This document shows positions 8,009 through 48,672 of a stretch of 64,000 bases of DNA, one piece after another. This stretch comes from Ligustrum vulgare (Eukaryota > Streptophyta > Magnoliopsida > Lamiales > Oleaceae). The translations under genes were made by a program, and so were the position numbers. The first letter of the stretch is position 1; every line of letters starts with the position of its first letter. The DNA lies in the NCBI GenBank assembly GCA_963555705.1, contig OY743181.1, positions 29,144,513 through 29,208,512 on the forward strand. The letters are read 5' to 3'. The notes below the pieces were generated by a model that was not told the origin of the DNA, ran no database searches, and worked only from the letters and a program-made list of their open reading frames with translations.

Positions 8009-8243
8009 TGTTATGAAATATGACGTAAGAAAATTAGATATTAGGTATTTGAATGAATATTACCATTATGCCTCTGTAAAATTTACATATTACGATTGTA
8101 TCATTATTCGCTCTTATAAATAGGAGCCATTTTCATAAGAAATTTACACCTCTTGAAGAGAATTTCTCTCTACTCTCTCATTCTCTCCATCTAAGTTCTC
8201 TCTATCTATTTCTTGTGTTTAGATTTTAGATAGTTTTACAACG
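8009..8243 (+). repeat. 5' LTR of element B
   Basis: 235 bp, TGTTATGAAA to TTTTACAACG. The right LTR ends ACAACA, so the last base here is changed. A TATA-like TATAAATAG (8114-8122) lies 5' of a CT-rich segment, a plausible promoter for the element RNA. Confidence 0.92.
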
Positions 8244-9485: not shown

Positions 9486-9810
9486 CTGAATTTGAATGGG
9501 TGGATGAAAATTATTCAACAAGAGAATGTTGATGTATGATAAGATAATATCACATGATAGCACGGATATGGCTAATGTGAAAATAATCTCACCAGTATTA
9601 TGAGATGAATATTAGATGATAAGTGTCTGGAAAAGTTCTTGCACTAGCACTTATGTATTCCAGAAGAAGTACATATTTATTCCAGAAGAAGTAAAAATTA
9701 TCATATAAACATACTGAAATGATATTATTATTATTGCTCCTGAAGAAGTATAAACGAGTCATACATGCAAAATACAAAAGGGGGAAACATTTATGATCCT
9801 CAAAATTAGA

Positions 9811-10004
9811 GATGTGTTTCGGGAGTAGTCGTATCCTACCACCTCTGATATTTTGAGGAAATAAAGAAAAATGTGTGTTTCAAGAGTAAGAATACTCCAT
9901 ACTCTACCACCTTAAATCTTTGAGGTACACAAGATTAAACATTGATAAAATCCTAGAAATTTATGGTGTGTCTCAAGAGTGAGAATACTCTGTACTCTAC
10001 CACC
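9811..10004 (-). repeat. Three hairpin repeats 3' of LOG copy 1
   Basis: Copies at about 9811-9845, 9872-9912 and 9964-10004. The plus strand reads GTGTGTTTCAAGAGTAAGAA followed by TACTCC and ends CTCTACCACC; the first copy is the most divergent. The centre GAGTA-AGAA-TACTC can fold into a small stem-loop. Three matching repeats follow LOG copy 2 at 44599-44810. Confidence 0.8.
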
Positions 10005-10018
10005 ATCTATTCTAGGGT

Positions 10019-10672
10019 TCACAAAGATAATTTTACATTAACCGGACTCCATTTTCGCTTGATTCCCCTTCTTTGCGACCAATCTATCTTAACTCCTGCT
10101 GGATCTTGTATTGGAATATATGATTGCAACTTATCCAGTAGTTCTTCGATAGTAGGAGCAGAAATAAGGAGTCTCCTAGAAAATGGAGAGATGAATCCCT
10201 GTTCCACAGCATAATCAATAAATGTTAACAAACCATCAAAGAAATTTTTAATATTTAAAAGCCCAATAGGCTTAGTATGGAGATCTAGTTGAGCCCATGA
10301 GGTAATATTAAAGATTTCTTCTAAAGTACCAAAACCTCCGGGCAGGGCTATAAAGGCATCAGAACCATATAACATGCAAGTTATGCGTTCATGGATAGAT
10401 AAGGTTTGTACTTCATGCCCTCGTGTTTTGCATGCGATATCAGCTAAAGGAGTAGGTATAACACCTATCACTCTTGCTTTCTCTACTAGAGCGGATTGTG
10501 AAACACAACCCATCAATCCACTGCTACCTCCTCCATACACGAGAGTGATACCTTTCTCTCCCAACTTCTTTCCTAAATCCACGGCTGCTTCTAGATACCC
10601 AAAACCTTTTCATACTTTTGATCCACAAAATACACAGATAGTTTTGATCTGTCGAAGTTTTGGTCCTTCCAT
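10019..10672 (-). pseudogene. LOG-type cytokinin phosphoribohydrolase, copy 1, stop at codon 21
   Basis: Same 654-bp frame as the intact copy at 43934-44587. LOG enzymes release active cytokinin bases from cytokinin riboside 5'-monophosphates in the cytosol. The frame opens at an ATG (10672-10670), reads CVFCGS, then meets TGA at 10612-10610 where the other copy has a glycine codon; after that it stays open to the end. Over the final 187 residues I count 17 differences from copy 2 (about 91% identity), with GGGSSGLMG and PGGFGTLEE unchanged. Restart downstream would lose the N-terminal strand of the nucleotide-binding fold, so I call it a pseudogene. It lies antisense in element B, about 255 bp after the Cys-rich gene. 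Confidence 0.85.
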
Positions 10673-10928
10673 CTTTGAGAGAATAAGGAAGGAAAAACTT
10701 ATGAGAAAGTGATATTTTGGGATACATGAAACTGTGAAAATCATTGGCTTTTTAAACTTGAAAAACTTCACTATTTACTGCTCGTCTTTCGAAAAAGTAA
10801 AGATTTACTTTTGACAAAATCACCACCTTTCAGTGATTTAATATTTTTAACCAGCCTCTATCAAAACTCGTGAAAGGAAACAGAAAAATATTTTATATGT
10901 GCATATATATCAAATGATTTACCTTGTA

Positions 10929-11474
10929 TTAATGCTGCATAGCCAAAACATCATTGTTCATAACAGCCTGGAAAACATGATCTTTTGCTACTATATTTTT
11001 GAGACTGTAACGGTTTTTATCCTTATTAAATTGAGCATATAAGGAAAGGAGTTCACGTTGCACATACCCACTTGGGTGCGTCTCAAGAGTCAATCGGATA
11101 TCATCTAATGACTCTTTACTCAGTCCACCCTTAATGAAATCGATTTTATCATCCCGATTTCTAGAAGAATATCCTACTGATTTGCAACGAGTATCACATG
11201 TCCAACGATCACATTTGTAACAACCGTTAAGCCTTTCTGCTCTTCGTTTCTTTGCAAAAGTACTTTTTCCTAAATCAGGCATGTGTTTAGGAAATGTCAA
11301 TGGCAATTCACCAGCTAATCGAACTTTTGCTTCGATCAACCAGCGAACATCTTCTGGGATGCCATGATCCATCAGCAACCTCAATCTTTCGAGCCTAATT
11401 CGATAAATTTTTCTCAAATCATTTACCGGAAGATTGGAATAATATTTGCGAATATTTGAAAGTATGATATCCAT
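10929..11474 (-). CDS. Small basic Cys-rich protein, carlavirus-NABP-like, copy 1
   Basis: An open frame of 181 codons. The N-terminal 60 residues are rich in Arg, Leu and Ile and look helical. A basic patch (KSTFAKKRRA) leads into a Cys cluster CX2CX4CX3C (CYKCDRWTCDTRC), and the rest is mixed charged. The basic patch directly followed by a Cys cluster, and the GYSS plus FI..G stretch after it, recall the nucleic-acid-binding proteins of carlaviruses; this is recognition by eye. The start is set at MDIIL because both copies share it, and a 2-bp indel just before it breaks any longer shared frame. It differs from copy 2 at about 21 of the first 165 residues, and the C-terminal 15 or so diverge. 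It is antisense to element B. Confidence 0.7.
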   Translation of the reverse strand: MDIILSNIRKYYSNLPVNDLRKIYRIRLERLRLLMDHGIPEDVRWLIEAKVRLAGELPLTFPKHMPDLGKSTFAKKRRAERLNGCYKCDRWTCDTRCKSVGYSSRNRDDKIDFIKGGLSKESLDDIRLTLETHPSGYVQRELLSLYAQFNKDKNRYSLKNIVAKDHVFQAVMNNDVLAMQH

Positions 11475-13130: not shown

Positions 13131-13157
13131 GGAGTGTACTATTTATGACATCTGGGA

Positions 13158-13280
13158 AATTGATTATTCACTAGAAGTGAATATGAAAATGAATATGTTT
13201 AATTATTCATCAGAAGTGAATTCTAGATTTGATTATTCACCAGAAGTGAATTCTAAATTTGATTATTCACCAGAAGTGAA
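13158..13280 (+). repeat. 30-bp tandem repeat with internal inverted repeat
   Basis: About four units of GATTATTCACCAGAAGTGAA plus roughly 10 more bases; the last two units are nearly identical. Each contains TTCAC-CAGAA-GTGAA, a 5-bp stem. Because the unit is a multiple of three it yields a small open frame (13114-13320) that I do not regard as a gene. Confidence 0.8.
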
Positions 13281-13428
13281 AGATGCAATCGATAAATTAG
13301 TACAACATTGCTTAATATAGCATGTTATAACATCATGAGCTACGAACAATTTATATAAAGCTCATCATAAATTATATGATTGCACCAATATACTTGTGAT
13401 ATTCCATGAAAGGAATAAATACGCGTTG

Positions 13429-14148
13429 CACTCTTTTTCCCTTAACTAAGGTTTTGTCCCACAGGGTTTTCCTAGCAAGGTTTTTAATGAGGCAATAGTT
13501 GAGGCATATTGATGAAAATTAATGAGAATAATGTACTCTTTTTCCCTTCGCTGAGGTTTTGTCCCACATGGTTTTCCTAGCAAGGTTTTTGAGGCATCAT
13601 CATAGCTATCAACAAGCTATAATTCAGCAACACATTGTTATACTGGAATGATATCAACAAATGAAGAAAATCATACACATCTTGTGAAGAATGTTATGAT
13701 ATCGGCTACACACAAGAAGATTTTCATATATACATATTTCAGACGAAAGATGATATCATTATTCAAAAGGTTCATGAATACTTGATTGCACACTTCAGGG
13801 GGAGAATCATGTTGTACTCTTTTTCCTTCGTCCAGGTTTTGTCCTACTAGGTTTTCCTGACAAGGTTTTAACGAGGCAGCGGCTATACTCTTTTTCCTTC
13901 TTTCAGATTTTGTCCCATTGGGTTTTACTGACAAGGTTTTAACGAGGCAGCACTAAATTACTGAAGCACTGAAGCACTTCAGAAATTCAAATTTCAGTAC
14001 ATGATTTGTACTACTTATCATTGATGTCATTTTGGATATTTGACTTAATGATTAATGATGGCCAACATCAGGGGGAGCAGCTGTACTCTTTTTCCTTCGC
14101 TCAAGTTTTATCCCACTGGGTTTTCTTAGCAAGGTTTTAACGAGGCAG
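13429..14148 (+). repeat. Five copies of the copia 3' noncoding block
   Basis: Copies at about 13429-13494, 13533-13595, 13814-13879, 13885-13951 and 14082-14148. Each reads ACTCTTTTTCC, GGTTTTGTCCCAC(T)GGGTTTTCC, then AAGGTTTT and GAGGCA. This block is familiar from the 3' untranslated part of plant Ty1/copia elements. Two copies are preceded by CAGGGGGAG, a second-rank purine tract. Confidence 0.85.
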
Positions 14149-14177
14149 AAATTGAGCAAGCGAGTAATATGTCATTC

Positions 14178-14185
14178 AAGGGGAG
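14178..14185 (+). other. Polypurine tract of element B
   Basis: AAGGGGAG immediately before the TG of the right LTR, the expected primer for plus-strand DNA synthesis. Confidence 0.85.
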
Positions 14186-14420
14186 TGTTATGAAATATGA
14201 TGTAAGAAAATTAGGTATTAGGTATTTGAATGAATATTACCATTATGCTCCTGTAAAATTTACATATTACGATTGTGTTATTATTCAATCATATAAATAG
14301 GAGCCATTTTCATAAGAAATTTACACCACTTGAAGAGAATTTCTCTCTACTCTCTCATTCTCTCCATCTAAGTTCTCTCTATCTATTTCTTGTGTTTAGA
14401 TTTTAGATGGTTTTACAACA
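14186..14420 (+). repeat. 3' LTR of element B
   Basis: 235 bp, TGTTATGAAA to TTTTACAACA, with 12 differences from the 5' LTR by my count, followed by the duplication CGCCC. Confidence 0.93.
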
Positions 14421-14425
14421 CGCCC

Positions 14426-28027: not shown

Positions 28028-28032
28028 AAAAA

Positions 28033-29446
28033 TGTTGGGAAACCGGGTTGCTCTACTCACAAAAATTGATTTCTTGTGATAGATCATCCCGTTACAGGAT
28101 TTTCTGTTCTATGTATTCAACTTGGAACAAATAATTTTGTGCACATAAAAAGAAAGAGATATTACCCTTGTAGCGTGCTTTACAATAATCTCTTTTCGCT
28201 GCTTCTTGATTTCACCAAAGCTTCAAACCCTCAAGCTTTCCTCGGTGTTCTCCAATGGCAGCTGTGCAGGTGCGTGGTCACCTTTCTCAAGATCTAGGTT
28301 AAACTAGGTTTAGGGTTTTTTTGTAAAGAGGATACACACACTACACACTTTAGTGTGTGTTTCGCCACTTTGTCTATTAGGTTAAGAAAAATAGTCTTAA
28401 GAGACTATTTGTAACCTCTTTACATTCCAAAAACCCTACCAGGCCTAGTACCATAACCCAGGCCCATTTCTGCACAACCCAATACAGGTAATAAGCCTGT
28501 ATAAACCCATTATAGTGAAGCCACCGAGGGAACCTGATAGGACCCAATTAAACTAAGCTCCAATAAATTAATTATGACCCGATCAACTCTTGATCAGTCA
28601 AAATTAATTTATTAATCACGTTCTATTCCACTAAAAGAACGAGACTGCACTCTTAGTAAAATTGAAATTACTGAAACAATTAATCAATAATTATATCCTC
28701 TGACTTATCGTTCTTACATGTTACCCCCGTCGATCAACTCGAATATTCGGAGCAAGTTAAAATGACCAAAATGCCCTTATCCGAATATTCATAAATTCTC
28801 AACTCTCATCTTCTATCTGACAGTTCGATGTGATCACATCACATCATAGAATTCAACAGTCACTGTCGAATTACTGAGCTCAGATTCAACTGTCCATTAG
28901 AAGAACCAGTGAGATTATGATCATACCTAAAAGGTGACGGATTCCATAATACGAATATATGTTCCTCGTTAGTTCACTTTAATTCCCAAAGTACCGAGAT
29001 ATTGATCAACAATTTGATCTCACCCATTGATACCTCAAAGAACTTCAAGTTAGTAATCGAAGTCCATTATCCGATTAGGATTAAGGTCCCACGTACGATA
29101 ATCAAGTGAAATTAAATTTGTACGGTCAATGTCACAAATTAATTTCACGTGGTCCCGTCCAATACGTTCCAAACGTACTCTCAATTTTATTACCAAAGTC
29201 AAAGACAGACTTTAATAAAATCGAGACGATCTTATCAAAATAAATCGTCCATATTTATTTACTGATCGTGAACGTTAATTTTAGATCGAATCACAAATTG
29301 AATCTTTCTGTGTTTAACAACTTAAACACTCAATTTGTAATATCAAATCGACCCGTGGACAAACGCAACTTCATATTAATACAATCAATTAATATTTTTA
29401 TTTTAAATGTCGTGAATTATACTCTAGGGCATATATAATTCCAACA
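28033..29446 (-). repeat. 3' LTR of element D
   Basis: Near-identical to 35265-36678. It contains an inverted pair around 28335-28355 (ACACTACACACTTTAGTGTG) and another around 28390-28412 (ATAGTCTTAAGAGACTAT) that may form stem-loops in the element RNA. Confidence 0.93.
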
Positions 29447-29462
29447 ATCTCCCACTTGCCCT
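29447..29462 (-). other. Polypurine tract of element D
   Basis: The minus strand reads AAGGGCAAGTGGGAGAT directly before the 3' LTR, a very common tract in plant copia elements. Confidence 0.88.
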
Positions 29463-30384
29463 TAGAGTATACATGAAACATCGAATCATCCATCTTGTCA
29501 ACATCATCATTACACTAATGATTATGTTCTCAACCAAGATAGTAACTCCTTTCGATGTAAGTCACGGTTGTATAACAAACAATCTAAGTTTGTGTTATAC
29601 CCAACCTATTAACCACATTATCTCCCAGTTATATTCCAATTTTGACGACTCTCGAGAGTCCTAGTCAAATCAGATCTTAATTAGTTTTAATCCATCAGAT
29701 CATCAACTGAATAGATAAGCAAATATTTACTCGTTTTCCGAAAACGATTCAGTATATGCTGTACCTCTATTCAATGATCTGATCCTGGATCAAACTAATA
29801 ATTACCAACAATATCCCCAGCATAAGATATGACCTATCTAGTGCAAAGTAAGGCTTCCTATAGCCGGAGCATAAGGAACCTTCTCTATCTTACCATGAGT
29901 TTTAGGAGAATACTCATAAGATAGATAAAGTCCACAAAGAACATTATTCCTTTCAAGACTTCAATATTGCAAATGTAGATAGTATCTTATTATTACATGA
30001 AACTTGAGACTGTTCTATTTCATTTTTCTCCCACTCCGAAAAGTACGGATGTCTAGAAAAAATAGACAGTCATCTACAAGTCCTTCAAGTCTAATTGCTG
30101 GTACCAACTACTATTTAATGAAAATACTCTCACACATAAGTAGAGTGTCATCCAAATAAATAGTCGCGAAAACTGTCTCATCTTTCTGTATACACGAGTA
30201 TACTTAAGATATATCAAGATTTTGATCAAGAACATGTATCACAATAGTTCTATCAAATTCTATATTCCATATCTTGAACAATTACCCAAATCCAAAGTTG
30301 GAAACTTGTAAGTCATGAATTTTACTTTCATGGTCTTTAATATGAACTCATCAGGTTAAACTTTGTAAATGATTTCCTCAAGAT

Positions 30385-30460
30385 GCATTCAAGAAAAAAA
30401 CTTCTTGACATCCATCTGTCGTACCTCATTTTCACAATGAACGACAATGGATAAAAGATC
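30385..30460 (-). pseudogene. Element D: reverse transcriptase shred
   Basis: The minus strand reads DLLSIVVHCENEVRQMDVKK, which lines up with the copia RT segment ending QMDVKTAFLNG, then meets a stop. The remaining pol domains are too mutated for me to name. This supports a copia origin for element D. Confidence 0.6.
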
Positions 30461-33400
30461 CAAGTAAGCTTTCGCATGGCAATTGGCGAGAAGGGTTTCA
30501 CAAACCCACAGCCATAAGCCTTGCACTGAAGGCATCAACCTTCTCATCTACCATTCTCCTATCATCTTAAAAATCATCACACCCTATAGGTTTGACCCTA
30601 TTAGGTGTGTCTACAAATATCCAAACCCTAGTGTAGTACAAGGAATCCAATTCCGAGTTCCCGTTCACCTTCCATGATTTCAATTCCATAACTTCTACCA
30701 CTTCCCTAAATAAGGAGTCATTCTCTTATTTCAGTAGAGACTGTCTAAGAAGACTCTCTATAGAATAAATGTCAATAAGGTGGTCTTACAACCCTCCCAC
30801 TCCAATTAGTCGCTGGAAGTGTATTTCCATTATGTCCAAACAGAGTTACTTCCTCTCATCCCACTACTTGGTTATATCCCTAATTGGGATCAACCTCTCT
30901 ACTACCTCTTTATGAACATAAAGAAGAGGCAGAACAGTGAGAACAACTTCGACTACAACCTTTGGTTTTTCCCTGTCCATTGGGTTCACCAGGAAAAATT
31001 AGTGGTTGAACCACTTGCCTATTTCTCCCACTAGGATCAACAACCATCGGTTCCGTAGGAAGTCCCAAATCATTAAGATTAATTCTATGCGGAAACCTGG
31101 AATCAAGTTGTTTGAACCACGTTCTAACATCTTATCCAATAGAATTTTACTTGTGGATTTGTATTCTTCTATATGCCTTATCCTCTAAGAAAGTTACATT
31201 TGTACTGAACAAATACTTTCTTGACCAGAGGACTATAGAAGAAATAATTTCTAGTTTCGATGCATACCTTATAATCAAACCTTCATTGTTGCCTCCATCC
31301 CGTCAATCCTGGCTTTCAGCTTGTGTGCCAAAAGTCCCCAAATCTGAATGTGGTGTAAACTGAGCTTGCACCCATGCCACAACTCTAGGGGTATTTCAGG
31401 AAACAAATCAATGGTACTAGGCTATGAAGGAACCTGACTATCTCCGGTATACATTCCCAAATGAAACTAGTAACGAGGATAACTGATCATTGATTTGGTA
31501 TTACCTTGTTCTCCTTTTTCGATAAATGGTTCATAAACTCATATGAGAGATACACAAACCTCGATCAAATCGAAGTATCTCGATTCTCTTAATTACTTCT
31601 CAACTTCTATCCAAAATTCTAGAATTTCTTCAACATTTCGGATTAATGAGATATTAAGTATATAATCGAGATCTGGAGTGATCATCAATAAAAGTGATGA
31701 ATTACTCGTACTCTCTCGTATCTTGAGCACAAAAGAATCCATTCATATCGAAGTGTATTAATCCTCAAATTCTTAAGTCCATATAATGTATAAGGACTCT
31801 TGGTTATATAATCCTCTAAACAAGATTCAGAAAAATAGTATAGATTCCACCTCAGATCCTTTTGAGGTCCATCCCTTACTAGTATTAGAATCGAGTTTTG
31901 GATAAGTGTAACCAAGCCTAAAATCTTAATCATTTTACCCTCTAAATAAAATTCAAAAGCTCACATAGATTCCACCTCCAAAATACTTAGAGGCTATCTT
32001 TACTAGTCTTTCAATCTTATTTAGATAAATATGATTATCTTAAGATCTTATCAAAAAGTTCATTAATACAAGGAATCATCTATCCCTTATCATTTGTAGT
32101 AATATTACACTTAGAACCATTTACAAGGCTTTGAGATTGTTAATCATTTGTCTCGCAATAATAAGAGCATTATTTAACTTAATTCCAACTAATAACTGGA
32201 GATTAAGTGCTAAATAATTCCGCTCAAATAATAAAGAGACAAAATAACAATCAAATTGTTTCGCAAACATAAAAGCCCAACGGCTCTTTCCATATTACCG
32301 TACCCGTGCTTATCCTTATAGTATACTCTATCTCATTGTGTCATTTGGTCACCTAGGACCATATTGCAACAACTTGCAATAGTGATTAGTTACTCTAGAA
32401 TCTATAATCAAGATAGACTCAATTACTAATCATAACACAATGAATAGAGTCTTACTCCATTATAAAGTTTCTAGGAAAGGCTACTTCCTCATTAATCCTA
32501 TCTTTGCTCAAAAGCAAAAAGGTTAGAGGGCCTACCATACTATCCGTTGCTTTAAAATAATCTCTTCTCTATGAATAGCTTACATTGAACCTTTCAGGGA
32601 CACGTTCATCCTGGTGAATATAGTCCACACTGAACCGCAAGAGATCATCTTAAAAGATTTCTCAAGCATTATGTCACATGAATCAATGTTTACAAGTGGA
32701 ACCTCTACCACGTTAAAGTGACCAATCATGTTTTACCAAATGGTCTCTTGTAAAAATCGTGATCGGTTCATAAGTAGAGATATATTATAGCTTGATAGCA
32801 TATTTTGTATAACTCCATAATTAAAATGTTCAAATTATCATAAATACCCTTCCATCGAGAAAATAAATATGGTATCCTATTTTGATGTTTTTATTGCGAA
32901 GTACTTGACGTGAGAATCAAAACTATACAATAAACCATCTCATCAAAATAAAACCATTTTCATTGGAAGATTTATAATTATTTTTGAACAAGGATCTTCT
33001 AGCACGAACAAATGTCATAAGTGGAAAGAATTATAACGAGACATGTTACAGTTTTCGCAAATTAGTTGGTGATGTCAAAACATATAACTAGTTGTGAAAA
33101 TACGACATTCAAATAAAATAAATGTATTAAACACGAGTTGCATAAATGATGAATACTTTCATATATGATGCATGAATAAAAAATTATGCACAAGTAGACC
33201 CAAAACTACTATAATATGACGACAACCTAAAACCCCAAAATCTTAAACACATTTCTCTATAGGAGAAATAAATGTGATTTATGGCTAGGCTGGGACTCTC
33301 CCACTAAATTAAATATATCTAGCATCTCATGCAATATTTAATTTATAGTCGTTAAAATTTGGCCATTATTGACATCGTTTGGATATTCTATAGGAAGTCC

Positions 33401-34430
33401 CCACGATGTCATTAATTTAAGTGTCTAACCCCTATATTAATAATATTTCAAGTACCAAATTAATTATGTCACCTATAGGGTAATCATGATTAATTCACAC
33501 TTAAAAAAAAATCATCACCTAATTGGGCCCAATCCAGTAACCAAAACAGTGCAGCCCTCCTATAGGGAGACTAATTAGATTAGCACGTGGCATACACAAA
33601 TTTTTACTAATGGACTAATAGGGGAGGCCGTGGGTTCAAAAATTGCACCCTCACTCACTTAATATTTTGAACTCTTGGGTTTTAATTAATAATTACCCAA
33701 TCAATTTTAACTCTTAAAATCAATTTAATTATTAATAAATATATTTATTTTCTAATCTAACATTTAGAAAAGAAAATAAAATATAAAACAATGCATGACA
33801 GTATAGTACCTAGAGCGGTGTATATGCGATCTACATGACATGTTATTAAATGACATTCATTCACAATTTAATTAAAGCAATAAATAAATGCGATAATAAA
33901 ATAAATAAGAACATAATTTATGGCCCAAACCTAGACACAAAATTACAAATTAATTAAAGAGTCTATTGAGCCACAAGTCGACTCAATTCTTCAATTTCCA
34001 TTTGCAAGTGTCCAGTCCAAAACTGCAAACCTTCAATCTTCAGTTCAAATGCCAAATACCAACATGAAGTGATCCAATTAAATATTCCAGCCCATTGTAA
34101 AATCCAGTCCGTATTGCAATGGCCCAGCTAAACAATTTAGCCCACATTACAAATTAATCAAAATAAACTAATTTTATAATTCTGGGCCATATTTAATTTT
34201 ACCAAAATCTAATCCAACTGATATAAAACCAGTCCAAGTGCCCAATCTTTAATTCTGGCCCAAAAAAAATCTGGCCCAAGATAGTATTTGTCATTCTGGT
34301 CCAAAACTTGAATCTGGCATCAACTGATAATTGCATAGATCCGGCCCAAATGAATAAGAGGCCCAAGTCAGAATTACCCATCTCCTTCATTTCCTTCTTC
34401 ACTGTAAGGTCACTGTAACAAAACTGAGAA
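30461..34430 (-). other. Element D interior, decayed coding region
   Basis: Stops in every frame. Position and order suggest former integrase, protease and gag, but I could not recognise a single catalytic motif. Small plus-strand frames here are chance. Confidence 0.5.
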
Positions 34431-34431
34431 T

Positions 34432-34870
34432 TCAAAAATTACAGTCGCCAATGGAAACCATTCTCATCGCCGGAGAATGCCAAGGAAGCCGTGCATCGCG
34501 TGGACACCATAATCGCGCAGCACAGCCACGCCACGAACTGGCGCAACCCTGAGACCACAGCAGCGCTGTAGCTTCGCTGCCGCCTGCTTCGCCAATCACC
34601 AGAGATAAGATAGAGAAACACGAGAGGTTGGAGACTCCATGGCGCCACCGCTGCAGCCAACCGCGAATCAACAGTGCGTATAGCACTGCAGCACCACGCG
34701 GAGGCGACAGCGACACCTGTGGGTGTCGCGCTTCTCGACCGCGATTGCATTCTGCCGTTGCCACAGCATGAGAGACGGGACAGCCAGCGCCGTCGATCGC
34801 AGCGGCATCACCTACGATGCTGCTACCCAACCCTTTTTGCGATATTGCACTGCAGGTCCTTATTATATGG
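34432..34870 (-). other. GC-rich leader block of element D
   Basis: About 440 bp, strikingly rich in GC and CpG against an AT-rich background, located a few hundred bp after the primer site. Two minus-strand frames of 103 and 132 codons overlap here, as expected by chance in GC-rich DNA; neither product looks like a known protein. It could be a captured host gene fragment or a packaging leader. Confidence 0.5.
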
Positions 34871-35250
34871 AGATGATGAAGTTTAGTCCATATATTGGAA
34901 TTGCATCAGTGGTCCTCCGAATTTGCAATGGAAGTCCTTCAATTTGAAAACTGCAGATCTGGTCCTCTGATTTTACAATTACAATAGAAATAATACAAAC
35001 CCTAATTCTATTGCAAAAATCAAAAATCAAAAAGGAAAACATGGAGTCGCAATCCACCCCTTTTGTTACAAGACTCGATAATACAAATACAAGAATTTAC
35101 CACAAAAATTCTAAGGCCATAAATTTGTTCATCAAAAACGTCATTCATCCAATAACAATCAAATCACATAAAACCTAACACCGCTCAACTAACACATGCA
35201 TAACAAAATTATTTAATCCTAAATACATAAAACAGTATCAAAAAACTGAC

Positions 35251-35262
35251 GCTCTGATACCA
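35251..35262 (-). other. Primer-binding site, tRNA-iMet type (element D)
   Basis: The minus strand reads TGGTATCAGAGC two bases after the end of the 5' LTR. Confidence 0.93.
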
Positions 35263-35264
35263 AT

Positions 35265-36678
35265 TGTTGGGAAACCGGGTTGCTCTACTCACAAAAATTG
35301 ATTTCTTGTGATAGATCATCCCGTTACAGGATTTTCTGTTCTATGTATTCAACTTGGAACAAATAATTTTGTGCACATAAAAAGAAAGAGATATTACCCT
35401 TGTAGCGTGCTTTACAATAATCTCTTTTCGCTGCTTCTTGATTTCACCAAAGCTTCAAACCCTCAAGCTTTCCTCGGTGTTCTCCAATGGCAGCTGTGCA
35501 GGTGCGTGGTCACCTTTCTCAAGATCTAGGTTAAACTAGGTTTATGGTTTTTTTGTAAAGAGGAAACACACACTACACACTTTAGTGTGTGTTTCGCCAC
35601 TTTGTCTATTAGGTTAAGAAAAATAGTCTTAAGAGACTATTTGTAACCTCTTTACATTCCAAAAACCCTACCAAGCCTAGTACCATAACCCAGGCCCATT
35701 TCTGCACAACCCAATACAGGTAATAAGCCTGTATAAACCCATTATAGTGAAGCTACCGAGGGAACCTGATCGGACCCAATTAAACTAAGCTCCAATAAAT
35801 TAATTATGACCCGATCAACTCTTGATCAGTCAAAATTAATTTATTAATCACGTTCTATTCCACTAAAAGAACGAGACTGCACTCTTAGTAAAATTGAAAT
35901 TACTGAAACAATTAATCAATAATTATATCCTCTGACTTATCGTTCTTACATGTTACCCCCGTCGATCAACTCGAATATTCGGAGCAAGTTAAAATGACCA
36001 AAATGCCCTTATCCGAATATTCATAAATTCTCAACTCTCATCTTCTATCTGACAGTTCGATGTGATCACATCACATCATAGAATTCAACAGTCACTGTCG
36101 AATTACTGAGCTCAGATTCAACTGTCCATTAGAAGAACCAGTGAGATTATGATCATACCTAAAAGGTGACGGATTCCATAATACGAATATATGTTCCTCG
36201 TTAGTTCACTTTAATTCCCAAAGTACCGAGATATTGATCAACAATTTGATCTCACCCATTGATACCTCAAAGAACTTCAAGTTAGTAATCGAAGTCCATT
36301 ATCCGATTAGGATTAAGGTCCCACGTACGATAATCAAGTGAAATTAAATTTGTACGGTCAATGTCACAAATTAATTTCACGTGGTCCCGTCCAATACGTT
36401 CCAAACGTACTCTCAATTTTATTACCAAAGTCAAAGACAGACTTTAATAAAATCGAGACGATCTTATCAAAATAAATCGTCCATATTTATTTACTGATCG
36501 TGAACGTTAATTTTAGATCGAATCACAAATTGAATCTTTCTGTGTTTAACAACTTAAACACTCAATTTGTAATATCAAATCGACCCGTGAACAAACGCAA
36601 CTTCATATTAATACAATCAATTAATATTTTTATTTTAAATGTCGTGAATTATACTCTAGGGCATATATAATTCCAACA
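35265..36678 (-). repeat. 5' LTR of element D
   Basis: 1414 bp. About six point differences from the left LTR, which points to a recent insertion. Confidence 0.93.
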
Positions 36679-36689
36679 AAAAATGGGTG

Positions 36690-40165: not shown

Positions 40166-40353
40166 ATGTTGTTTAATGGTTTTTTTTATTTAAATATTAT
40201 ATTGGTTTTAATTTGATATATAATTGGTAATTATTTTTATATTATACAATATTATATTCACTAATTACTAATTAACACCTGATTTTAAAAAAAAAAAATC
40301 CATAAGTTAATTAGTTTTAAAAAGTAATAATTTTAGGTTTGTAGCTATGTAGT

Positions 40354-42165
40354 TGTGACGACCCGAATTCTCGACCATTCGAGTGCCACTAAAAGTGACT
40401 CATATCATATTATCGAGACTTAAATAGTAATGTAAAATTATTCAAAAGAATAATTAGAATCCCATAATTTAATTTGTGAATAAAAATAGAACATAATTTT
40501 CTTACATAAAGTTCAACATAATTATCTCATCCATCTTAACCACTTTTGCCACTTCCATGTTGACCGCCTCGAACCTTCAATTATCTGAAAATGGTAAATA
40601 TCGTGGAGTGAGATTTATAAAATCCCAGTAAGTATACCAAGCATATGGTCATTTTCATCATAACATAGGATAGGATCGAAATCCTCATAAACATAGAGAG
40701 ACACAAGAATTTTTCCGAACTTAGATGACAAGAATTCTTATGTGTAGCGCTACTAAACTCCGGTCCCCTTAGCATAATCATAAACATATCATATGGGACC
40801 CATAGCAATCTTGTGAGATTGATTTCATAGCAATGATCCAAACATTTTCGTAAAAACATAAGGTATATTTACCTTTCATAAAAACATACTTACTTTTCAT
40901 AAAAACATAAGATATACTTACTTGTCATAAAAACTTAAAGTATATTTACATTTCATAACAACATACTTAATTTTCATAAAAACATAAGATATACTTACTT
41001 GTCATAAAAACATACTTACTTTTCATAAAAACATAAGGTGTATTTACCTTTCATAAAAACATACTTACTTTTCATAAAAACATAAGATATACTTACCTTT
41101 TAAAAGATTAAAATGAAGGGTAGTAGTAAATGGACCAAAACTTTCTTGACCACCTTGAATTTCTCTTACTTGTGGATTTTGTCAAGAGATTGGAAATAAG
41201 TGTATATGTGTAGAGTTGTGTGTAAAAGAGATGGATTTATATAGATGTGTAAAGTTGGCATAATGTAAACATCATCATTCAATTCTATTAATTTTAACAC
41301 ATCCTTTTTTTAAAGTAAAGCACCATTCATATACTTTTCCATATTTATACAAATATTATGCTCTTCATGATTACATATAATGGAGTCTTATCAACCATTC
41401 ATATACTTTTCCATATTTATACAAATATTATGCTCTTCATGATTACATATAATGGAGTCTTATCAACCATTCATATACTTTTCCATATTTATACAAATAT
41501 TATGCTCTTCATGATTACATATAATGGAATCTTATCAACCATTCATATACTTTTCCATATTTATACAAATATTATGCTCTTCATGATTACATATAATGGA
41601 GTCTTATCAACCATTCATATACTTTTCCATATTTATACAAATATTATGCTCTTCATGATTATATATAATGGAGTATATAAATCATTCATATACTTTTCCA
41701 TTTTTTATACAAATATTATGCTCTTCATGATTACATATAATGGAGTCTTATCAATCATTCATATACTTTTCCATATTTATACAAATATTATGCTCTTCAT
41801 GATTATATATAATGGAGTATATAATTCATTCATATACTTTTCCATATTATTAAATTAAGATTCTCATAATTATTATATATAATGGAACCTCTCATGCTTG
41901 CATATATTTTCTTAATAAAAATAATTTTTGTATAAATAAATATTGGGATAACATTGAATTTAGTACTTGGACTTAATATACTTTAAATCAAGAGAATGGA
42001 GATATTTTTAGAAATTCGGAATTTAATTTAAAATCGAACGATCTCGATTATTTCTTGACTTGGCTATACGAATACGTCACGGCGTTACTTAATAAAAATG
42101 GGTGAAATAGTAGCGACACGATTTTAAAATAATTATTAATCGCGTAAAAATTCTTGGTCGCTACA
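40354..42165 (-). repeat. 3' LTR of element E
   Basis: 1812 bp, TGTGACGACCCG to GGTCGCTACA in plus reading. Contains CATAAAAACATA short repeats (about 40850-41100) and the 72-bp array. Confidence 0.95.
41325..41850. repeat. 72-bp tandem array in the 3' LTR of element E
   Basis: Seven units and a partial eighth of a 72-bp sequence starting ATTCATATACTTTTCCATAT. The first four are nearly identical, later ones have short indels. The unit is 24 codons without a stop, which makes a long but artificial plus-strand frame. Confidence 0.95.
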
Positions 42166-42172
42166 AACTTAC

Positions 42173-42320
42173 CTCCTTAAAATAATTTCGTCCTCGAAAT
42201 TAAACTTACTTGATCTTATGATTTCTGAACACTTAATCAGAATCTCTTCTCTTCTTTCTCTTAGTAATCTCATCATTATAATATCTAACCCACTGAACTT
42301 TTACTAAATGCATCTCTTTG
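42173..42320 (-). pseudogene. Element E: chromovirus pol C-terminal remnant
   Basis: The minus strand reads VKVQWVRYYNDEITKRK, then a stop and, after a frame change, NFEDEI just before the purine tract. I compare this with the chromodomain and C-terminal end of Tekay-type gypsy pol (VKVQW...EEATWE). The match is short and decayed. Confidence 0.45.
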
Positions 42321-42329
42321 TTTTCTTAA

Positions 42330-42700
42330 GAACATGTATTTTTCTTATCAATAATAGACATATGTGTCTACTCATAAATTCTAACTCAAAATGAAAATTT
42401 CCAATCGTATGTGATATTTCATCATATCTTGTAGTACTCATGTAACCTGTCACTTATCATCGTATCATGTAACCTCAAATATTCGTATTAATATCTCTAA
42501 AATTTCAATAAATCTTTACTAACATATCATACCATAATAATTTGTCATTTCTTCTTATCACCAAATATCCCAAAATAATTAAAACGATTACCTGAATATT
42601 CTCTATGTAATATACCCAAACATGTTATTCACATATCAACATAATCATCAGTTTATCTTTCCAATATTTGTAACCCAAAATTTCTGCAAAATTCAATAAA
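42330..42700. other. Element E interior, no readable gene
   Basis: AT-rich DNA between the pol remnant and the cassette. I see weak similarity to 11850-12000 in reverse but cannot set a boundary. Confidence 0.4.
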
Positions 42701-43085
42701 CAAATATCTCCCAAATAATTAAAATTCTTAACTCAAATATCATAACATTTCCCGTAAGGTATTCCTTTCACTTGCACAAACTTATTAATCCTGATTCAAT
42801 ACAGTCATTATTTCACTTTCACGTATCCCCGTATTATTTCTATACCTTGATTATTATATCAAAATATCAGTACCCAAAAATCCAAGAAAATATTCCATAT
42901 CTCAAATCCCGTCATCATCAAATCTTCCTTTTATCAAGAAAGTAAACGGCGCATAAACTCTTGTTCCCTCTTTTCCATTATTCTATTCCGCGCTTTCTTG
43001 CTGGAATCAATATCACGCGGATTCCCTCCGATCCTTAATGCTTTTAAATAGTTCATGCTGGGAAGAGGTTAGATCCATCAAAAAC

Positions 43086-43637
43086 ATGGATATCATTCTT
43101 ACAAACATTCGCAAGTATTATTCCAGTCTTCCAATGAATGATCTGAGGAAAATTTATCGAATAAGACTCGAAAGATTGAGGTTGCTGATGGCTCATGGTG
43201 TTTCAGAAGATGTTCGCTGGTTGATCGAAGCAAAGGTTCGACTATCTGGTGAATTACCTATGACATTTCCAAAGCACATGCCTGGTTTAGGCAAAAGCAC
43301 CTTCGCAAAGAAACGAAGAGCAAAAAGTATGAATGGTTGCTACAAATGTGCTCGTTGGAACTGTGATACTCGTTGCAAAACAGTAGGATATTCTTCTACT
43401 AATCGGGATGATAAAATCAAATTCATAAAGGGTGGACTGAGTAAGGAGTCTTTGGATGATATTCGACTGACTCTTGAGACGCACCCAAGTGGTTATGTGC
43501 AACGTGAACTTCTCTCCTTATACGCTCAGTTTAACGAGGACAAAAATCGTTATAGTCTCCAAAATATAATAGCAAAAGATCCTGTTTGCCAGTCTGTTTT
43601 ACAAAATGAGGCTTCTGGCAGTTCAACAATGATATAA
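43086..43637 (+). CDS. Small basic Cys-rich protein, carlavirus-NABP-like, copy 2
   Basis: An intact 183-codon frame. Residues 1-60 are Arg/Leu-rich and probably helical. Residues 70-80 form a basic patch (KSTFAKKRRAK) and residues 85-97 a Cys cluster CX2CX4CX3C (CYKCARWNCDTRC) likely to bind zinc. The C-terminal half is charged with a conserved run LETHPSGYVQRELLSLYAQF. No signal peptide or membrane segment is visible, so a nuclear or cytosolic nucleic-acid-binding role is plausible. The patch-plus-Cys layout resembles carlavirus nucleic-acid-binding proteins, though the Cys spacing is tighter. I start at MDIIL; an upstream in-frame ATG (43038) is not conserved in frame with copy 1. Its neighbour LOG follows 296 bp later on the same strand. 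Confidence 0.75.
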   Translation: MDIILTNIRKYYSSLPMNDLRKIYRIRLERLRLLMAHGVSEDVRWLIEAKVRLSGELPMTFPKHMPGLGKSTFAKKRRAKSMNGCYKCARWNCDTRCKTVGYSSTNRDDKIKFIKGGLSKESLDDIRLTLETHPSGYVQRELLSLYAQFNEDKNRYSLQNIIAKDPVCQSVLQNEASGSSTMI

Positions 43638-43742
43638 GGTAAATCTCTTGATACACATTTAAAATATTTTGCTGTTTTCTTTCACGCGTTTTGGAAATAA
43701 AATATATTTTCCTTTCTCGAGTTTTGATAAAGCTGGAAATAA

Positions 43743-43758
43743 ATCACCGAAAGGTGAT
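43743..43758 (+). other. Inverted repeat between the two cassette genes
   Basis: ATCACC-GAAA-GGTGAT is a perfect 6-bp stem with a GAAA loop. In copy 1 the same place reads AATCAC-TGAAAGGTG-GTGATT, again able to pair although bases differ. Confidence 0.5.
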
Positions 43759-43850
43759 ATCTTTGGTAAAACAGTCAAAAGTTGGCCGATTTTGTCAAAA
43801 GTAAATCTTTACTTTTTCATAATCAATCAAAAACAGTAAATTTTTTCGGC

Positions 43851-43859
43851 TTTAAATAG
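43851..43859 (+). promoter_or_regulatory. Candidate TATA box for LOG copy 2
   Basis: TTTAAATAG lies about 80 bp before the LOG ATG. The equivalent place in copy 1 reads TTTAAAAAG. Spacing fits a separate Pol II promoter for LOG, but no transcript start can be seen. Confidence 0.4.
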
Positions 43860-43933
43860 CCAAACATATTTCATAGTTCAGGCATCCCAAAATCACATCT
43901 TCTTCGTAAGTTTTCTCTTCTATACTATCAAAG

Positions 43934-44587
43934 ATGGAAGCACCAAAACTTCGACAGATCAAAACTATTTGTGTATTTTGTGGATCAAAAGTGGGGAAAG
44001 GCTTCAGTTATCTAGAAGCGGCCGTAGATCTTGGAAAGAAACTGGGGGAAAAAAGTATCACTCTTGTGTATGGGGGTGGTAGCAGTGGTCTAATGGGTTG
44101 TGTTTCCCAATCTGCTCTTGCAGAGAAATCAAAAGTAATTGGTGTCATACCTGTCCCTTTGGTAGATGTTGCAGGCAAAACACGAGGGCATGAAGTTCAA
44201 ACCTTATCCATCCATGAACGCATAACTTGTATGCTATATGGTTCTGATGCCTTTATAGCCCTGCCCGGAGGTTTTGGTACCTTAGAAGAAATCTTTAACA
44301 TTACCTCGTGGGCTCAACTAGATCTCCATACTAAGCCTATTGGGCTTCTGAATGTTAACAATTTCTTTGATGGTTTGTTAACCTTTCTTGATTATGCTGT
44401 GGAACAGGGATTCATCTCTCCATTTTCCAGAAGGCTCCTTATTTCTGCTCCTACTATTGATGAACTACTGGATAAGCTGCAGTCATATATCTCAATACAA
44501 GATCCAGCAGGGGTTAAGATAGATTGGTTGCAAGGAAGGGGAATCAAGCGAAAATGGAGTCCGGTTAATGTAAACTTAACTTTATGA
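43934..44587 (+). CDS. LOG-type cytokinin riboside 5'-monophosphate phosphoribohydrolase, intact
   Basis: A 217-residue enzyme of the LOG (lysine decarboxylase-like) family, close to the usual plant LOG length. LOGs hydrolyse cytokinin nucleotides to active bases plus ribose 5-phosphate in one step. Visible motifs: CVFCGS at 13-18, GGGSSGLMG at 47-55, PGGFGTLEE at 111-119, then SWAQLDLHTKPIGLLN and AVEQGFISP. At 94-97 it reads HERI where the plant LOGs I know have Lys after the Arg, a change near the active site. No intron is present although plant LOG genes usually have several, so the gene probably derives from an RNA copy. It follows the Cys-rich gene by 296 bp and runs antisense to element E. 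Activity is likely but unproven. Confidence 0.9.
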   Translation: MEAPKLRQIKTICVFCGSKVGKGFSYLEAAVDLGKKLGEKSITLVYGGGSSGLMGCVSQSALAEKSKVIGVIPVPLVDVAGKTRGHEVQTLSIHERITCMLYGSDAFIALPGGFGTLEEIFNITSWAQLDLHTKPIGLLNVNNFFDGLLTFLDYAVEQGFISPFSRRLLISAPTIDELLDKLQSYISIQDPAGVKIDWLQGRGIKRKWSPVNVNLTL

Positions 44588-44598
44588 ATCTTAGAATA

Positions 44599-44810
44599 GG
44601 TGGGGGTAGAGTACGGAGTATTCTTACTCTCGAGACACCCCTCTAATTTCCTAGGATTTCCTTAATGTTTAAATCTTGTGTGTACCTCAAAGGTTCCAGG
44701 TGGTAGATTACGGAGTATTCTTACTCTCGAAACACACCTCTTTGAAGGTTTCTTTATTTCCTCAAAAGGTCAGAGGTGGTAGGATACGGCTACTCCGGAA
44801 ACACATCTCT
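44599..44810 (+). repeat. Three hairpin repeats 3' of LOG copy 2
   Basis: Copies at about 44599-44641, 44699-44740 and 44774-44810. They read GTAGA(G/T)TACGGAGTATTCTT followed by ACTCTCGA(G/A)ACAC. The core GAGTA-TTCT-TACTC is an inverted repeat; the third copy has a different core, GGATACGGCTACTCC. They start 12 bp after the LOG stop, so they would sit in its 3' untranslated region. Confidence 0.8.
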
Positions 44811-44869
44811 CAATTTGAGGAATTTCCCATGTTGCTTTCTTTTGATTTTGCGTGTTTCATGTATTTCTT

Positions 44870-46560
44870 TCCAATGTGACTCTTGTGTGTTCTCCTTACG
44901 AGAAAATAATAAATATCTCTGTTATCATCTACTAAATCTCGTTTGTGATGTAAATGAATTTGCATGTCTAACCTCAATTCTCTTAGTGATTGCATACCAT
45001 ACTATGCTCTTAATTCCAAACGATAAAATTCTAAGCAGAGTTTCCTTTGAAATTTGGACTTATTCAAACCGTAAGCATACTTCATAACTCACAATAATAA
45101 ATAATTCCACATTTGATCACAACGATCTAAAAATTGACCACAATTTCATCAAACTTCAATATCATAAAAAAAATATTCCAGAAAATCAATTCATAATTCC
45201 TCAACATAGAAATTTCAAATCATAGTCGTCAATATCACAATATCACTTCCTTCAATACCTTAATTGGCTCAAAAGATTACTCATACTTATATTTATAAGT
45301 CATAAATCATATTCCCAAAATTTAATCACAAGGCCAAAGTTCATAATAAATTTCTCTTCAATATAGAGACATAATTCACTTACTCAACATAATATCCATT
45401 ACTTAATTCCCAATAACCAAATCTTTAAATCTCTAACTTCATAATGCTTCTCATAAAAGTCTCATTAAAATCATATCACTTATAATCTTAACATCTCATA
45501 AAAATTCATAAAATTGGCTCGCTATTTCTCATTAAATCTAAATGATAGATAATCTGAACATATTTCTAATCATTTCTGTTGACTTCTCATACTTAATGCC
45601 ATGTCTAAAATCAATTATGCAAAGTCCATTTAAGGTTTATCATTTCTAAACTCAAGGACAACAATTATTTTGAAAATCATTCTTAAGTCATATTATTCCC
45701 ATTAGGCTCAACACCCGTTCTCTTTCTTTCTTTTCTTTCCGATTTTTTTTTTTTTTTTTTTTTTTCAGAATTGAAACTTGAAGAGTGGTACCAATAATCA
45801 TCCACAGTTTTTCCTTGCTTTTAAGCAAAGGTAGTGATAAAGGGATAAATTATTGAACCGAAAATTGAAACTTGAAGAGGAAGTACTAATAACCATCCAC
45901 AGTTTTTCCCTTGTTTTTACACAAATGTAGTGATAAAGGGATAAATTACTGTACGAATTCATTATCAATTTTTTGTTTGTTTAATATATTATTCCATATA
46001 TTTTGGGCAAAAGTTACAACCCAACTTAATTTCTAATTGAGTCAATCTTACTAAGCTTAATATGAACCAAAATTCATATCAATATCCTCTATGTCTCATG
46101 ATTCTACATAAAAAGGAATAAATTAAAATTCAGGCTTCTATCAATTCATATCATACTCAACATGTATATTTCACTTAAAGATTCATAACATATGAAGATT
46201 TCATACTTAACATGTCTTAATAAAATCGTAAATGACTTGCAAAGCATATAACATACCTGGTTCGAGGAGTCAATACGTGGAGAGTGACATAGTAGAGTGA
46301 TGAGTTAAAATATTTCATATAATCTTATTTTCCTTTAATCAACAATAATTTAATGTGGTTGTATCCAAATCAACATTTTCTTGAATCATAATTCCTAATT
46401 AATCACAGTCTTCAAAACAAATCCAATATCGATATAGTAATTATCTCCCCATCAATAATTAATAACTTAACCCAAATAAAATTTATCGTCAAATCTTATT
46501 TTTCCTTTAGTCCCCGAACTTCTAGAAATTTATCAAAGACATCAATATAAACATCATATC
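44870..46560. other. Element E interior, no readable gene
   Basis: AT-rich with many CATAA/TTCAT motifs and a duplicated piece (about 45768-45850 and 45862-45945: TTGAAACTTGAAGAG to AAAGGGATAAATTA). A long poly-T lies at 45740-45764. No gene is supported. Confidence 0.55.
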
Positions 46561-46574
46561 ACTAACTAATTATA

Positions 46575-46645
46575 TTCCATAAAATTTTCAGGACATTACA
46601 AACTCCCTTGCTTAAAATGAATTTTGTCCTTGAAATTCGCACATC
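46575..46645 (-). other. Second chromovirus 3'-end remnant inside element E
   Basis: The minus strand reads GAATTTCAAGGACAAAATTC, then TTTTAAGCAAGGGAGTTTG and TAATGTCC, a decayed version of the pol end, purine tract and LTR start seen at 42165-42205. It suggests that element E contains a piece of another gypsy element. Confidence 0.55.
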
Positions 46646-46841
46646 AAATTTCATCATGCTTTTCAAAATCATAACCATACTTGACATGTGAAAATTCAAC
46701 TTTTTTTTTATAATGAATAGTGATTTCGTTCACTGTTCATCACGAATAGCACGTCGTTTTACTGTTCACGTGAATAGTGATTTTTTTTTTTTTTTAGAAA
46801 TAAAATTTCAAAAATCTACAGAATCGTTTTTAAAACTCTTT

Positions 46842-46853
46842 TCTCTGATACCA
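46842..46853 (-). other. Primer-binding site, tRNA-iMet type (element E)
   Basis: The minus strand reads TGGTATCAGAGA two bases after the 5' LTR. Confidence 0.9.
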
Positions 46854-46855
46854 AC

Positions 46856-48667
46856 TGTGACGACCCGAATTCTCGACCATTCGAGTGCCACTAAAAGTGA
46901 CTCATATCATATTATCGAGACTTAAATAGTAATGTAAAATTATTCAAAAGAATAATTAGAATCCCATAATTTAATTTGTGAATAAAAATAGAACATAATT
47001 TTCTTACATAAAGTTCAACATAATTATCTCATCCATCTTAATCACTTTTGCCACTTCCATGTTGACCGCCTCGAACCTTCAATTATCTGAAAATGGTAAA
47101 TATCGTGGAGTGAGATTTATAAAATCCCAGTAAGTATACCAAGCATATGGTCATTTTCATCATAACATAGGATAGGATCGAAATCCTCATAAACATAGAG
47201 AGACACAAGAATTTTTCCGAACTTAGATGACAAGAATTCTTATGTGTAGCGCTACTAAACTCCGGTCCCCTTAGCATAATCATAAACATATCATATGGGA
47301 CCCATAGCAATCTTGTGAGATTGATTTCATAGCAATGATCCAAACATTTTCGTAAAAACATAAGGTATATTTACCTTTCATAAAAACATACTTACTTTTC
47401 ATAAAAACATAAGATATACTTACTTGTCATAAAAACTTAAAGTATATTTACATTTCATAACAACATACTTAATTTTCATAAAAACATAAGATATACTTAC
47501 TTGTCATAAAAACATACTTACTTTTCATAAAAACATAAGGTGTATTTACCTTTCATAAAAACATACTTACTTTTCATAAAAACATAAGATATACTTACCT
47601 TTTAAAAGATTAAAATGAAGGGTAGTAGTAAATGGACCAAAACTTTCTTGACCACCTTGAATTTCTCTTACTTGTGGATTTTGTCAAGAGATTGGAAATA
47701 AGTGTATATGTGTAGAGTTGTGTGTAAAAGAGATGGATTTATATAGATGTGTAAAGTTGGCATAATGTAAACATCATCATTCAATTCTATTAATTTTAAC
47801 ACATCCTTTTTTTAAAGTAAAGCACCATTCATATACTTTTCCATATTTATACAAATATTATACTCTTCATGATTACATATAATGGAGTCTTATCAACCAT
47901 TCATATACTTTTCCATATTTATACAAATATTATGCTCTTCATGATTACATATAATGGAGTCTTATCAACCATTCATATACTTTTCCATATTTATACAAAT
48001 ATTATGCTCTTCATGATTACATATAATGGAATCTTATCAACCATTCATATACTTTTCCATATTTATACAAATATTATGCTCTTCATGATTACATATAATG
48101 GAGTCTTATCAACCATTCATATACTTTTCCATATTTATACAAATATTATGCTCTTCATGATTATATATAATGGAGTATATAAATCATTCATATACTTTTC
48201 CATTTTTTATACAAATATTATGCTCTTCATGATTACATATAATGGAGTCTTATCAATCATTCATATACTTTTCCATATTTATACAAATATTATGCTCTTC
48301 ATGATTATATATAATGGAGTATATAATTCATTCATATACTTTTCCATATTATTAAATTAAGATTCTCATAATTATTATATATAATGGAACCTCTCATGCT
48401 TGCATATATTTTCTTAATAAAAATAATTTTTGTATAAATAAATATTGGGATAACATTGAATTTAGTACTTGGACTTAATATACTTTAAATCAAGAGAATG
48501 GAGATATTTTTAGAAATTCGGAATTTAATTTAAAATCGAACGATCTCGATTATTTCTTGACTTGGCTATACGAATACGTCACGGCGTTACTTAATAAAAA
48601 TGGGTGAAATAGTAGCGACACGATTTTAAAATAATTATTAATCGCGTAAAAATTCTTGGTCGCTACA
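46856..48667 (-). repeat. 5' LTR of element E
   Basis: 1812 bp, with two differences from the left LTR found by eye. Contains the 72-bp array again at 47827-48352. Confidence 0.95.
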
Positions 48668-48672
48668 GTAGT

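Follow-up and report, generated by a model that had tools for sequence, protein, structure and literature searches.

A 64,000-nucleotide stretch of the Ligustrum vulgare genome (C14:29144513-29208512 of an assembly of 1.385 Gb in 51 contigs; hereafter, the window) contains two copies of a gene pair, each inside a long terminal repeat (LTR) retrotransposon. One gene encodes a Cys-rich, putative nucleic-acid-binding protein (NABP), and the other encodes a LONELY GUY (LOG)-like protein. We give about an even chance to the idea that plant LTR retrotransposons carry this pair as a portable accessory module, kept by selection for the benefit of the element; most likely, such a module would act on host silencing, transcription, or cytokinin. 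The initial annotation of the window had proposed the pair as stable retrotransposon cargo, a proposal borne out by the pairing of the two genes at nearly all the loci analysed, by their correlated divergence over 8 pairs, and by purifying selection in the window's families.

The Cassette and Its Two Carriers

Comparison of the window with itself revealed a cassette of ~2.1 kb in two copies on opposite strands, at 42766-44855 (+) and 11798-9763 (-). The order in each copy is an upstream region, the Cys-rich open reading frame (ORF), the LOG ORF, and three inverted-repeat motifs of ~40 nt. The two copies are homologous, and their gene order and strands are as initially described. The LOG gene at 10.0-10.7 kb is present but interrupted by an in-frame stop at codon 21. 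The features are as follows:

42766..43085, + strand: upstream region common to both cassettes, 86% identity to copy B over 304 aligned bases
43086..43637, + strand: NABP copy A, 183 aa, intact; PF05515 at E 2.6e-6 and PF01623 at E 3.5e-5 (ORF from 43038 scanned)
43934..44587, + strand: copy A of the LOG-like gene, intact as a single open frame of 217 aa; PF03641 at E 1.3e-33
44599..44810, + strand: three repeats of the ~40-nt inverted-repeat motif, 3' of LOG copy A
10929..11474, - strand: NABP copy B, 181 aa, intact; PF05515 at E 2.2e-7 (longer ORF scanned)
10019..10672, - strand: copy B of the LOG-like gene, open apart from one in-frame TGA at codon 21
9808..10007, - strand: three inverted-repeat motifs, 3' of LOG copy B
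40354-48667, minus strand: element A, whole, with 1812-bp LTRs, a target duplication, a primer-binding-site (PBS)-like site, and a purine tract
40354..42165, - strand: 3' LTR of element A (in the direction of the element), 99.89% identity to 46856-48667
46856..48667, - strand: 5' LTR of element A (in the direction of the element), paired with 40354-42165
8009-14420, plus strand: element B, whole, with 235-bp LTRs, a target duplication, a PBS-like site, and a polypurine-tract (PPT)-like tract
8009..8243, + strand: 5' LTR of element B, followed by the PBS-like TTATCAGCACGAG
14186..14420, + strand: 3' LTR of element B, with the PPT-like CAAGGGGAG directly before it

The two 1812-bp LTRs of element A differ by 2 mismatches. 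On the minus strand, the PPT-like AAGGAGGTAAG adjoins the LTR at 40354-42165, and the PBS-like GTTGGTATCAGAG, which we take to be of the tRNA-Met type, lies just inside the LTR at 46856-48667; a 5-bp target duplication, GTAGT, can be read at 40349-40353 and 48668-48672. Two arrays lie within these LTRs (at 40845-41890 and 47347-48392), a 72-bp tandem array and another one of short repeats. For element B, the repeat detected is of 237 bp with 12 mismatches; its last two bases are a chance identity with the target duplication, CGCCC (8004-8008 and 14421-14425), which leaves LTRs of 235 bp. The LTR lengths given initially are therefore correct for both elements, and because of the positions of the primer sites and purine tracts, both cassettes lie antisense to their carriers, again as first described.

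Pfam scans of element A (six frames) and element B (three sense frames) detected no gag or pol domain at E up to 1, and NABP and LOG are the only internal ORFs of more than 150 aa. The labels "copia-type" and "gypsy-type" initially given to the carriers therefore reflect the look of the LTRs, PBS, and PPT but no coding domain, and we use them as presumptive names only. Outside the cassette, no similarity between the carriers was found in the self-comparison (E up to 1e-5, at least 60 bases).

A TATA-like box, TTTAAATAG, is situated 43 nt 5' of the NABP start in both window copies, and another lies ~83 nt 5' of LOG, where copy A has TTTAAATAG and copy B has TTTAAAAAG.

Copies of the Pair in the Host Genome

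The first search of the host genome returned loose candidates (9397 with NABP copy A, 8832 with NABP copy B, 8542 with the NABP of contig L001, described below, and 9467 with LOG), of which 150 per query were scored. From these, 35 distinct NABP loci, picked by NABP similarity and including the two in the window, were analysed (L009 was left out). At 34 of them, LOG lies close downstream on the same strand; at the exception, L039, NABP is present (92% identity) and LOG is absent within 3.5 kb.

Twenty of the copies analysed, chosen for NABP similarity, belong to the family of element A. All of them carry the pair with an intact NABP, and both TATA-like boxes; LOG is intact in 16. LTR pairs of at least 1.2 kb surround the pair in 19 of the 20, the remaining copy (L018) having only a 183-bp direct repeat, and target duplications are directly readable in L019, L023, L026, and L029. 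Two further loci, L042 and L043, represent a subfamily resembling A and also hold the pair (NABP 93%, LOG 98-99%). A second B-family copy, L046, contains the pair, with one stop in LOG, in an interior alignable to element B; it has 153-bp direct repeats (100%) close to its ends in place of the window's LTR B. Against 8009-14420 of the window, most of its interior matches, at 86-91% in the long pieces, with no match to LTR B, as if the LTRs had been exchanged.

With the L001 NABP as the query, a diverged second family, D, was retrieved (L030-L038). LOG is on the NABP strand in all nine loci and starts 61-275 bp past the end of the NABP frame; identities to the window are 58-62% for NABP and 51-58% for LOG (in L036, two pieces of 54 and 46%). 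Here, the pair is in sense to the element; the antisense carriage initially described for elements A and B does not extend to family D. In L044, a longer version of the L035 locus, RNase H and integrase lie upstream, followed by NABP and LOG, all in the same direction; another element is apparently nested in this pol. A primer site, TGGCGCCGTTGCCGGGGA, presumably of the Athila type, follows the 5' LTR in the sense of the pair in L040, L041, and L045 (longer versions of L030, L033, and L038) and is missing from L044. No pol was found in L040, L041, and L045 with the L001 pol as the query. Two family D cassettes, L031 and L032 (C8:18779482 and 18783994), are ~4 kb apart in opposite orientation and are 99.4% identical over 1.7 kb.

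Elsewhere in the genome, NABP copies recur every ~6.6-6.7 kb in runs (C23:10311325-10338627, C13:30457866-30485204, and C22:1306460-1326777), which look like tandem LTR-internal-LTR arrays of a cassette element.

Selection on the Two Genes

Between the two window copies, dN/dS is 0.21 for NABP (95% interval 0.12-0.36; dS 0.49) and 0.11 for LOG (0.06-0.20; dS 0.39). Non-coding identity between them (upstream 86%, intergenic 83%, and downstream 85%, gaps excluded) is above the expectation from synonymous sites. In the young A-type family (22-23 copies), pN/pS values, which are pairwise counts over related copies rather than independent events, are 0.25 for NABP and 0.19 for LOG, the copies having been picked by NABP similarity, which therefore lowers pN for NABP, LOG being linked to it but not itself chosen. 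In this family, pS is 0.026, near the LTR divergence of 0.024; the intergenic part (0.018) and the 3' part (0.014) diverge less than synonymous sites. Purifying selection on both NABP and LOG is thus supported in the window's families and, since the carriers have no detectable gag-pol, this selection is not for replication proteins.

The Cys-Rich Protein

The initial annotation had called the small Cys-rich protein a putative nucleic-acid binder, and Pfam now makes it recognisable as one of virus type. The copies share 82% amino acid identity and score 28 and 24.1 bits (copy A) and 31.5 and 20.9 bits (copy B) with the Viral_NABP and Carla_C4 profiles, that is, at or above the curated cut-offs of 23 and 20.9; some relatives fall short on one profile (L001 with 20.4 bits for Carla_C4 and P0202 with 20.6 bits for Viral_NABP). 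As judged by these profiles, the protein is a predicted nucleic-acid-binding protein of the flexivirus type. A CxxC..C..C finger is found in 82 of 89 NABP rows, and a basic cluster is found in 80. The genomic setting is the inside of LTR elements and not a virus genome, and no relative was found in viral_contigs. Viral relatives of NABP are described as suppressors of silencing (PMC12172455), and p12 of chrysanthemum virus B is reported to have transcription-factor activity and to cause hyperplasia (PMC12172455, citing Lukhovitskaya 2013).

The LOG Protein and Its Tail

The best solved relative of the cassette LOG is At2g37210. In a tree of 97 proteins, the 26 host proteins, sampled from LOG1/LOG3 types, separate at 100/100, and two Xanthoceras proteins and P0044 are nearest to the host side. 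The cassette LOG would derive from a plant LOG, with a putative phosphoribohydrolase activity. The window LOGs have the motifs SIHERITCM and PGGFGTLEE; the Arg and Glu, which we take to be catalytic residues, are both retained in 113 of 123 cassette-type LOGs, and the His of HxRK is retained in 74.

Another characteristic is the C-terminus. Among the matches listed, 93 of 120 cassette-type LOGs and 0 of 120 host LOGs have LxLxL within the last nine residues, and in 89 of the 120 cassette-type LOGs this goes together with a basic cluster; these 120 are probably cassette-borne, and since they are related, the tail may be a single gain. In family D, the tail is LDLELRL. The tail resembles an EAR motif, defined as LxLxL or DLNxxP (PMC9956375), and may bind TOPLESS.

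Relatives in Other Plants

Relatives were sought in protein collections, with the best 120 of 343 and the best 120 of 6782 matches retained, one list per gene. Among the matches listed, both genes have relatives in Populus and Xanthoceras; NABP also has them in Orobanche and Acer, and LOG has them in Reevesia, Diplodiscus, Diospyros, and others. Dispersed copies in Reevesia pubescens make up 39 of the 120 best LOG matches, and the Populus and Diospyros lotus proteins called LOGL10 bear the cassette-type tail. In Orobanche minor and O. gracilis, NABP and LOG are fused in gene models (P0135 and P0141).

The 3330-bp contig L001 (DAIEQH010000041.1) contains an integrase ORF and then NABP in sense, with LOG absent from the remaining 1 kb. 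It is filed under a metagenome-assembled genome of Candidatus Nomurabacteria and looks like plant retrotransposon DNA contaminating a bacterial assembly.

Contigs of identical size in the NABP and LOG lists also bear on the pairing. Above 2 kb there are 3 such contigs, whereas shifting the lengths gives 0.15 on average and 2 at most. Contigs below ~1.4 kb are too small for both genes, and therefore only these 3 were used; the count over all sizes (8 exact matches, where offset lengths gave 2.8 on average and 8 at most) was not telling and was rejected as evidence. For 8 NABP-LOG pairs, 4 of which rest on equally sized contigs, the distances of the two proteins co-vary (Mantel r 0.84, with 1 of 5000 permutations as high).

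Other Features of the Window

The three hairpin repeats described initially do exist in the form of a conserved motif present three times, but their predicted fold beats shuffled sequences in copy B (z -3.16) and not in copy A (z 0.02), which makes a conserved RNA structure a weak proposition. A likeness of the repeats to a stretch of L001 was dropped, as there was no match within 6 mismatches of 21.

A third LTR-like pair (28030-29447 and 35262-36679, 1418 bp, 99.5% identity) encloses a 5.8 kb interior for which a scan of five frames gave no Pfam domain; 28030-36679 is perhaps another young element that lacks gag-pol and has no cassette. No Rfam family or tRNA identity was found in the window.

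Possible History and Role of the Pair

How might such a module have arisen? It would combine a zinc-finger NABP akin to the flexivirus cysteine-rich proteins, possibly of viral origin, with a LOG-fold protein from a plant LOG. It may first have resided in a lineage of the Athila type, represented by family D, which carries it in sense and downstream of pol in any member that has one; L001, from another plant, would show NABP alone behind integrase in the same lineage setting. The module would then have moved, perhaps by template switching, into elements without gag-pol and with unrelated LTRs, where it lies antisense, each gene preceded by a TATA-like box. During amplification, the proteins would have been retained by selection, presumably because they favour the element. 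NABP could counteract silencing or alter host transcription; LOG could alter cytokinin or recruit the TOPLESS co-repressor via its basic and LxLxL tail; and the two proteins may act together. In a bolder version, which is speculative and which we think rather unlikely as it stands, a silencing or transcription effector of RNA-virus type and a nuclear, TOPLESS-recruiting LOG would constitute a module that jumps between unrelated LTR elements, and this module, not gag-pol, would explain their abundance. Family D, in which the active site is lost and the EAR tail kept, would then mark out the tail, rather than cytokinin, as the function that is older or more general.

Several observations weigh against retention of the pair for its proteins. 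LOG is broken in 4 of the 20 A-family copies and in both B-family copies seen (the window and L046), while in family D, NABP has a stop in 3 of 9 copies and several LOGs are broken. In family D, pN/pS is 0.46 for NABP (9 copies, including the 3 with a stop) and, for LOG, a near-neutral 0.91 (5 equal-length copies). In the young A family, the upstream region (0.041) and the left internal region (0.038) exceed synonymous sites in divergence, which leaves constraint on the promoter part unsupported there; in addition, the A copies were chosen by NABP similarity. As for the proteins, 116 of 123 cassette-type LOGs lack the Lys of HxRK (it is present in 7 of them versus 120 of 120 host LOGs); in family D LOGs, Ser stands in place of the Arg, Asp in place of the second Gly, and Gln in place of the Glu; and the window LOG tails, VNVNLTL and VNVKLSL, are not strict LxLxL. 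The NABP model is weak (pLDDT 57 from 32 rows and 66 from 89), and its best Foldseek match, at E 1.1, is not significant; of 8 such non-significant matches, 3 bear names that refer to a silencing suppressor, a protein of a betaflexivirus, or nucleic-acid binding.

A simple explanation would be that the pair is passenger DNA that was captured once and amplified with the elements, is functionless, and has intact frames because it is young. The near identity of the LTRs (as in element A), the near-neutral LOG of family D, and the broken LOGs of families A and B would fit this explanation, which is nonetheless unlikely given that the window copies combine a dS of 0.39-0.49 with a dN/dS of 0.11-0.21, that pN/pS is 0.19-0.25 in the young burst, and that several named genera of plants have relatives with ~50-60% protein identity, most of them close to full length. 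If, instead, what matters were the antisense transcript, via control of the element by double-stranded RNA, selection at the protein level and the sense orientation in family D would be unexpected; antisense carriage in A and B and the antisense promoters described for plant LTR elements (PMC7264820) lend this idea some interest, and we judge it quite improbable.

The Pfam match of NABP raises the prospect of an endogenous RNA virus, that is, the 3' end of an undescribed flexivirus with NABP and LOG that integrated and then spread. Endogenous viral elements from RNA viruses are known in plants, including a flexivirus replicase in cucumber (PMC3136472). However, no other virus domain was found in Pfam scans (six frames of A and three plus-strand frames of B) and no relative in four scans of viral_contigs, each gene has its own TATA-like box, and NABP follows integrase in L001 and L044; this possibility, which we judge quite improbable, was set aside. 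Least probable of all is a domesticated host gene pair with the retrotransposon copies as by-products: the LOG is of plant type, but there are thousands of loose candidate places, nearly all the analysed loci are paired, and LTR pairs surround both window cassettes and all but one of the A copies.

Comparison with Known Systems

Plant LTR elements often hold extra ORFs of obscure origin or use. In the present pair, each gene has named relatives whose activities can be tested, namely silencing suppression and transcription effects (viral cysteine-rich proteins), cytokinin release (LOG), and TOPLESS binding (EAR tails). If the module helps the element, it would be a plant analogue of the accessory genes of retroviruses and would permit a direct test of how transposons in plants counteract silencing or manipulate hormone signals. 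Moreover, some annotated LOG genes, such as those for the LOGL10 proteins of Populus and Diospyros lotus and the Reevesia pubescens copies, may be transposon genes.

The initial annotation knew of no such pair in the literature. The presence of a LOG domain in plant LTR retrotransposons, at least, is not new: a YgdH/LOG extra domain is described in the Gypsy consensus of two Citrus species and, without a filter, in Populus trichocarpa, in a screen that requires reverse transcriptase (PMC9289625). Those elements resemble the cassette carriers in having a LOG-family domain as an extra domain, but section 12 of that source makes no mention of an NABP partner, an EAR-like tail, carriers without pol or with small LTRs, or selection on a pair. 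Among the open-access papers and passages listed, no report was found of NABP in LTR elements, of the NABP-LOG pair, of an EAR-like LOG tail, or of LOG carriers without gag-pol. ORFs antisense to the element, between pol and the 3' LTR, are described in Grande (gene23, reported to have its own promoter), RIRE2, and Retand (TRP28) (PMC7264820, PMC11963269). Like the cassette, these are conserved, but they belong to other protein families (TRP28, Smc, and others), and the passages on them do not mention an NABP-LOG pair.

LOG regulates cytokinin activity (Kuroha 2009, cited in PMC9289625). The cassette LOG shares with the plant LONELY GUY enzymes (At2g37210 and At5g11950) the protein family, the PGGxGTxxE loop, and, mostly, the Arg and Glu. 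It differs from them in the loss of the HxRK Lys (116 of 123), in the basic and LxLxL tail usual among its relatives, in its very high copy number in Ligustrum vulgare, and in its single open frame. Host LOG genes typically contain introns. Similarly, the cassette NABP and the flexivirus cysteine-rich proteins (PF05515 and PF01623) both have a basic cluster followed by a CxxC...C...C finger; unlike the latter, NABP is longer, has conserved regions on both sides of the finger, is not surrounded by virus genes, and has LOG as a partner.

As for the carriers, LTR retrotransposons with additional ORFs are like the A family in that the ORFs are conserved across copies (20 of 20, picked by NABP); the former have gag-pol, whereas none was found in A and B, and L044 has RNase H and integrase. 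Elements A and B may be likened to what we take to be non-autonomous, LARD-type elements, with which they share LTRs, PBS, PPT, target duplications, and the lack of a detectable gag-pol. Unlike LARD-type elements, they hold two genes, neither of them gag nor pol, that are under purifying selection.

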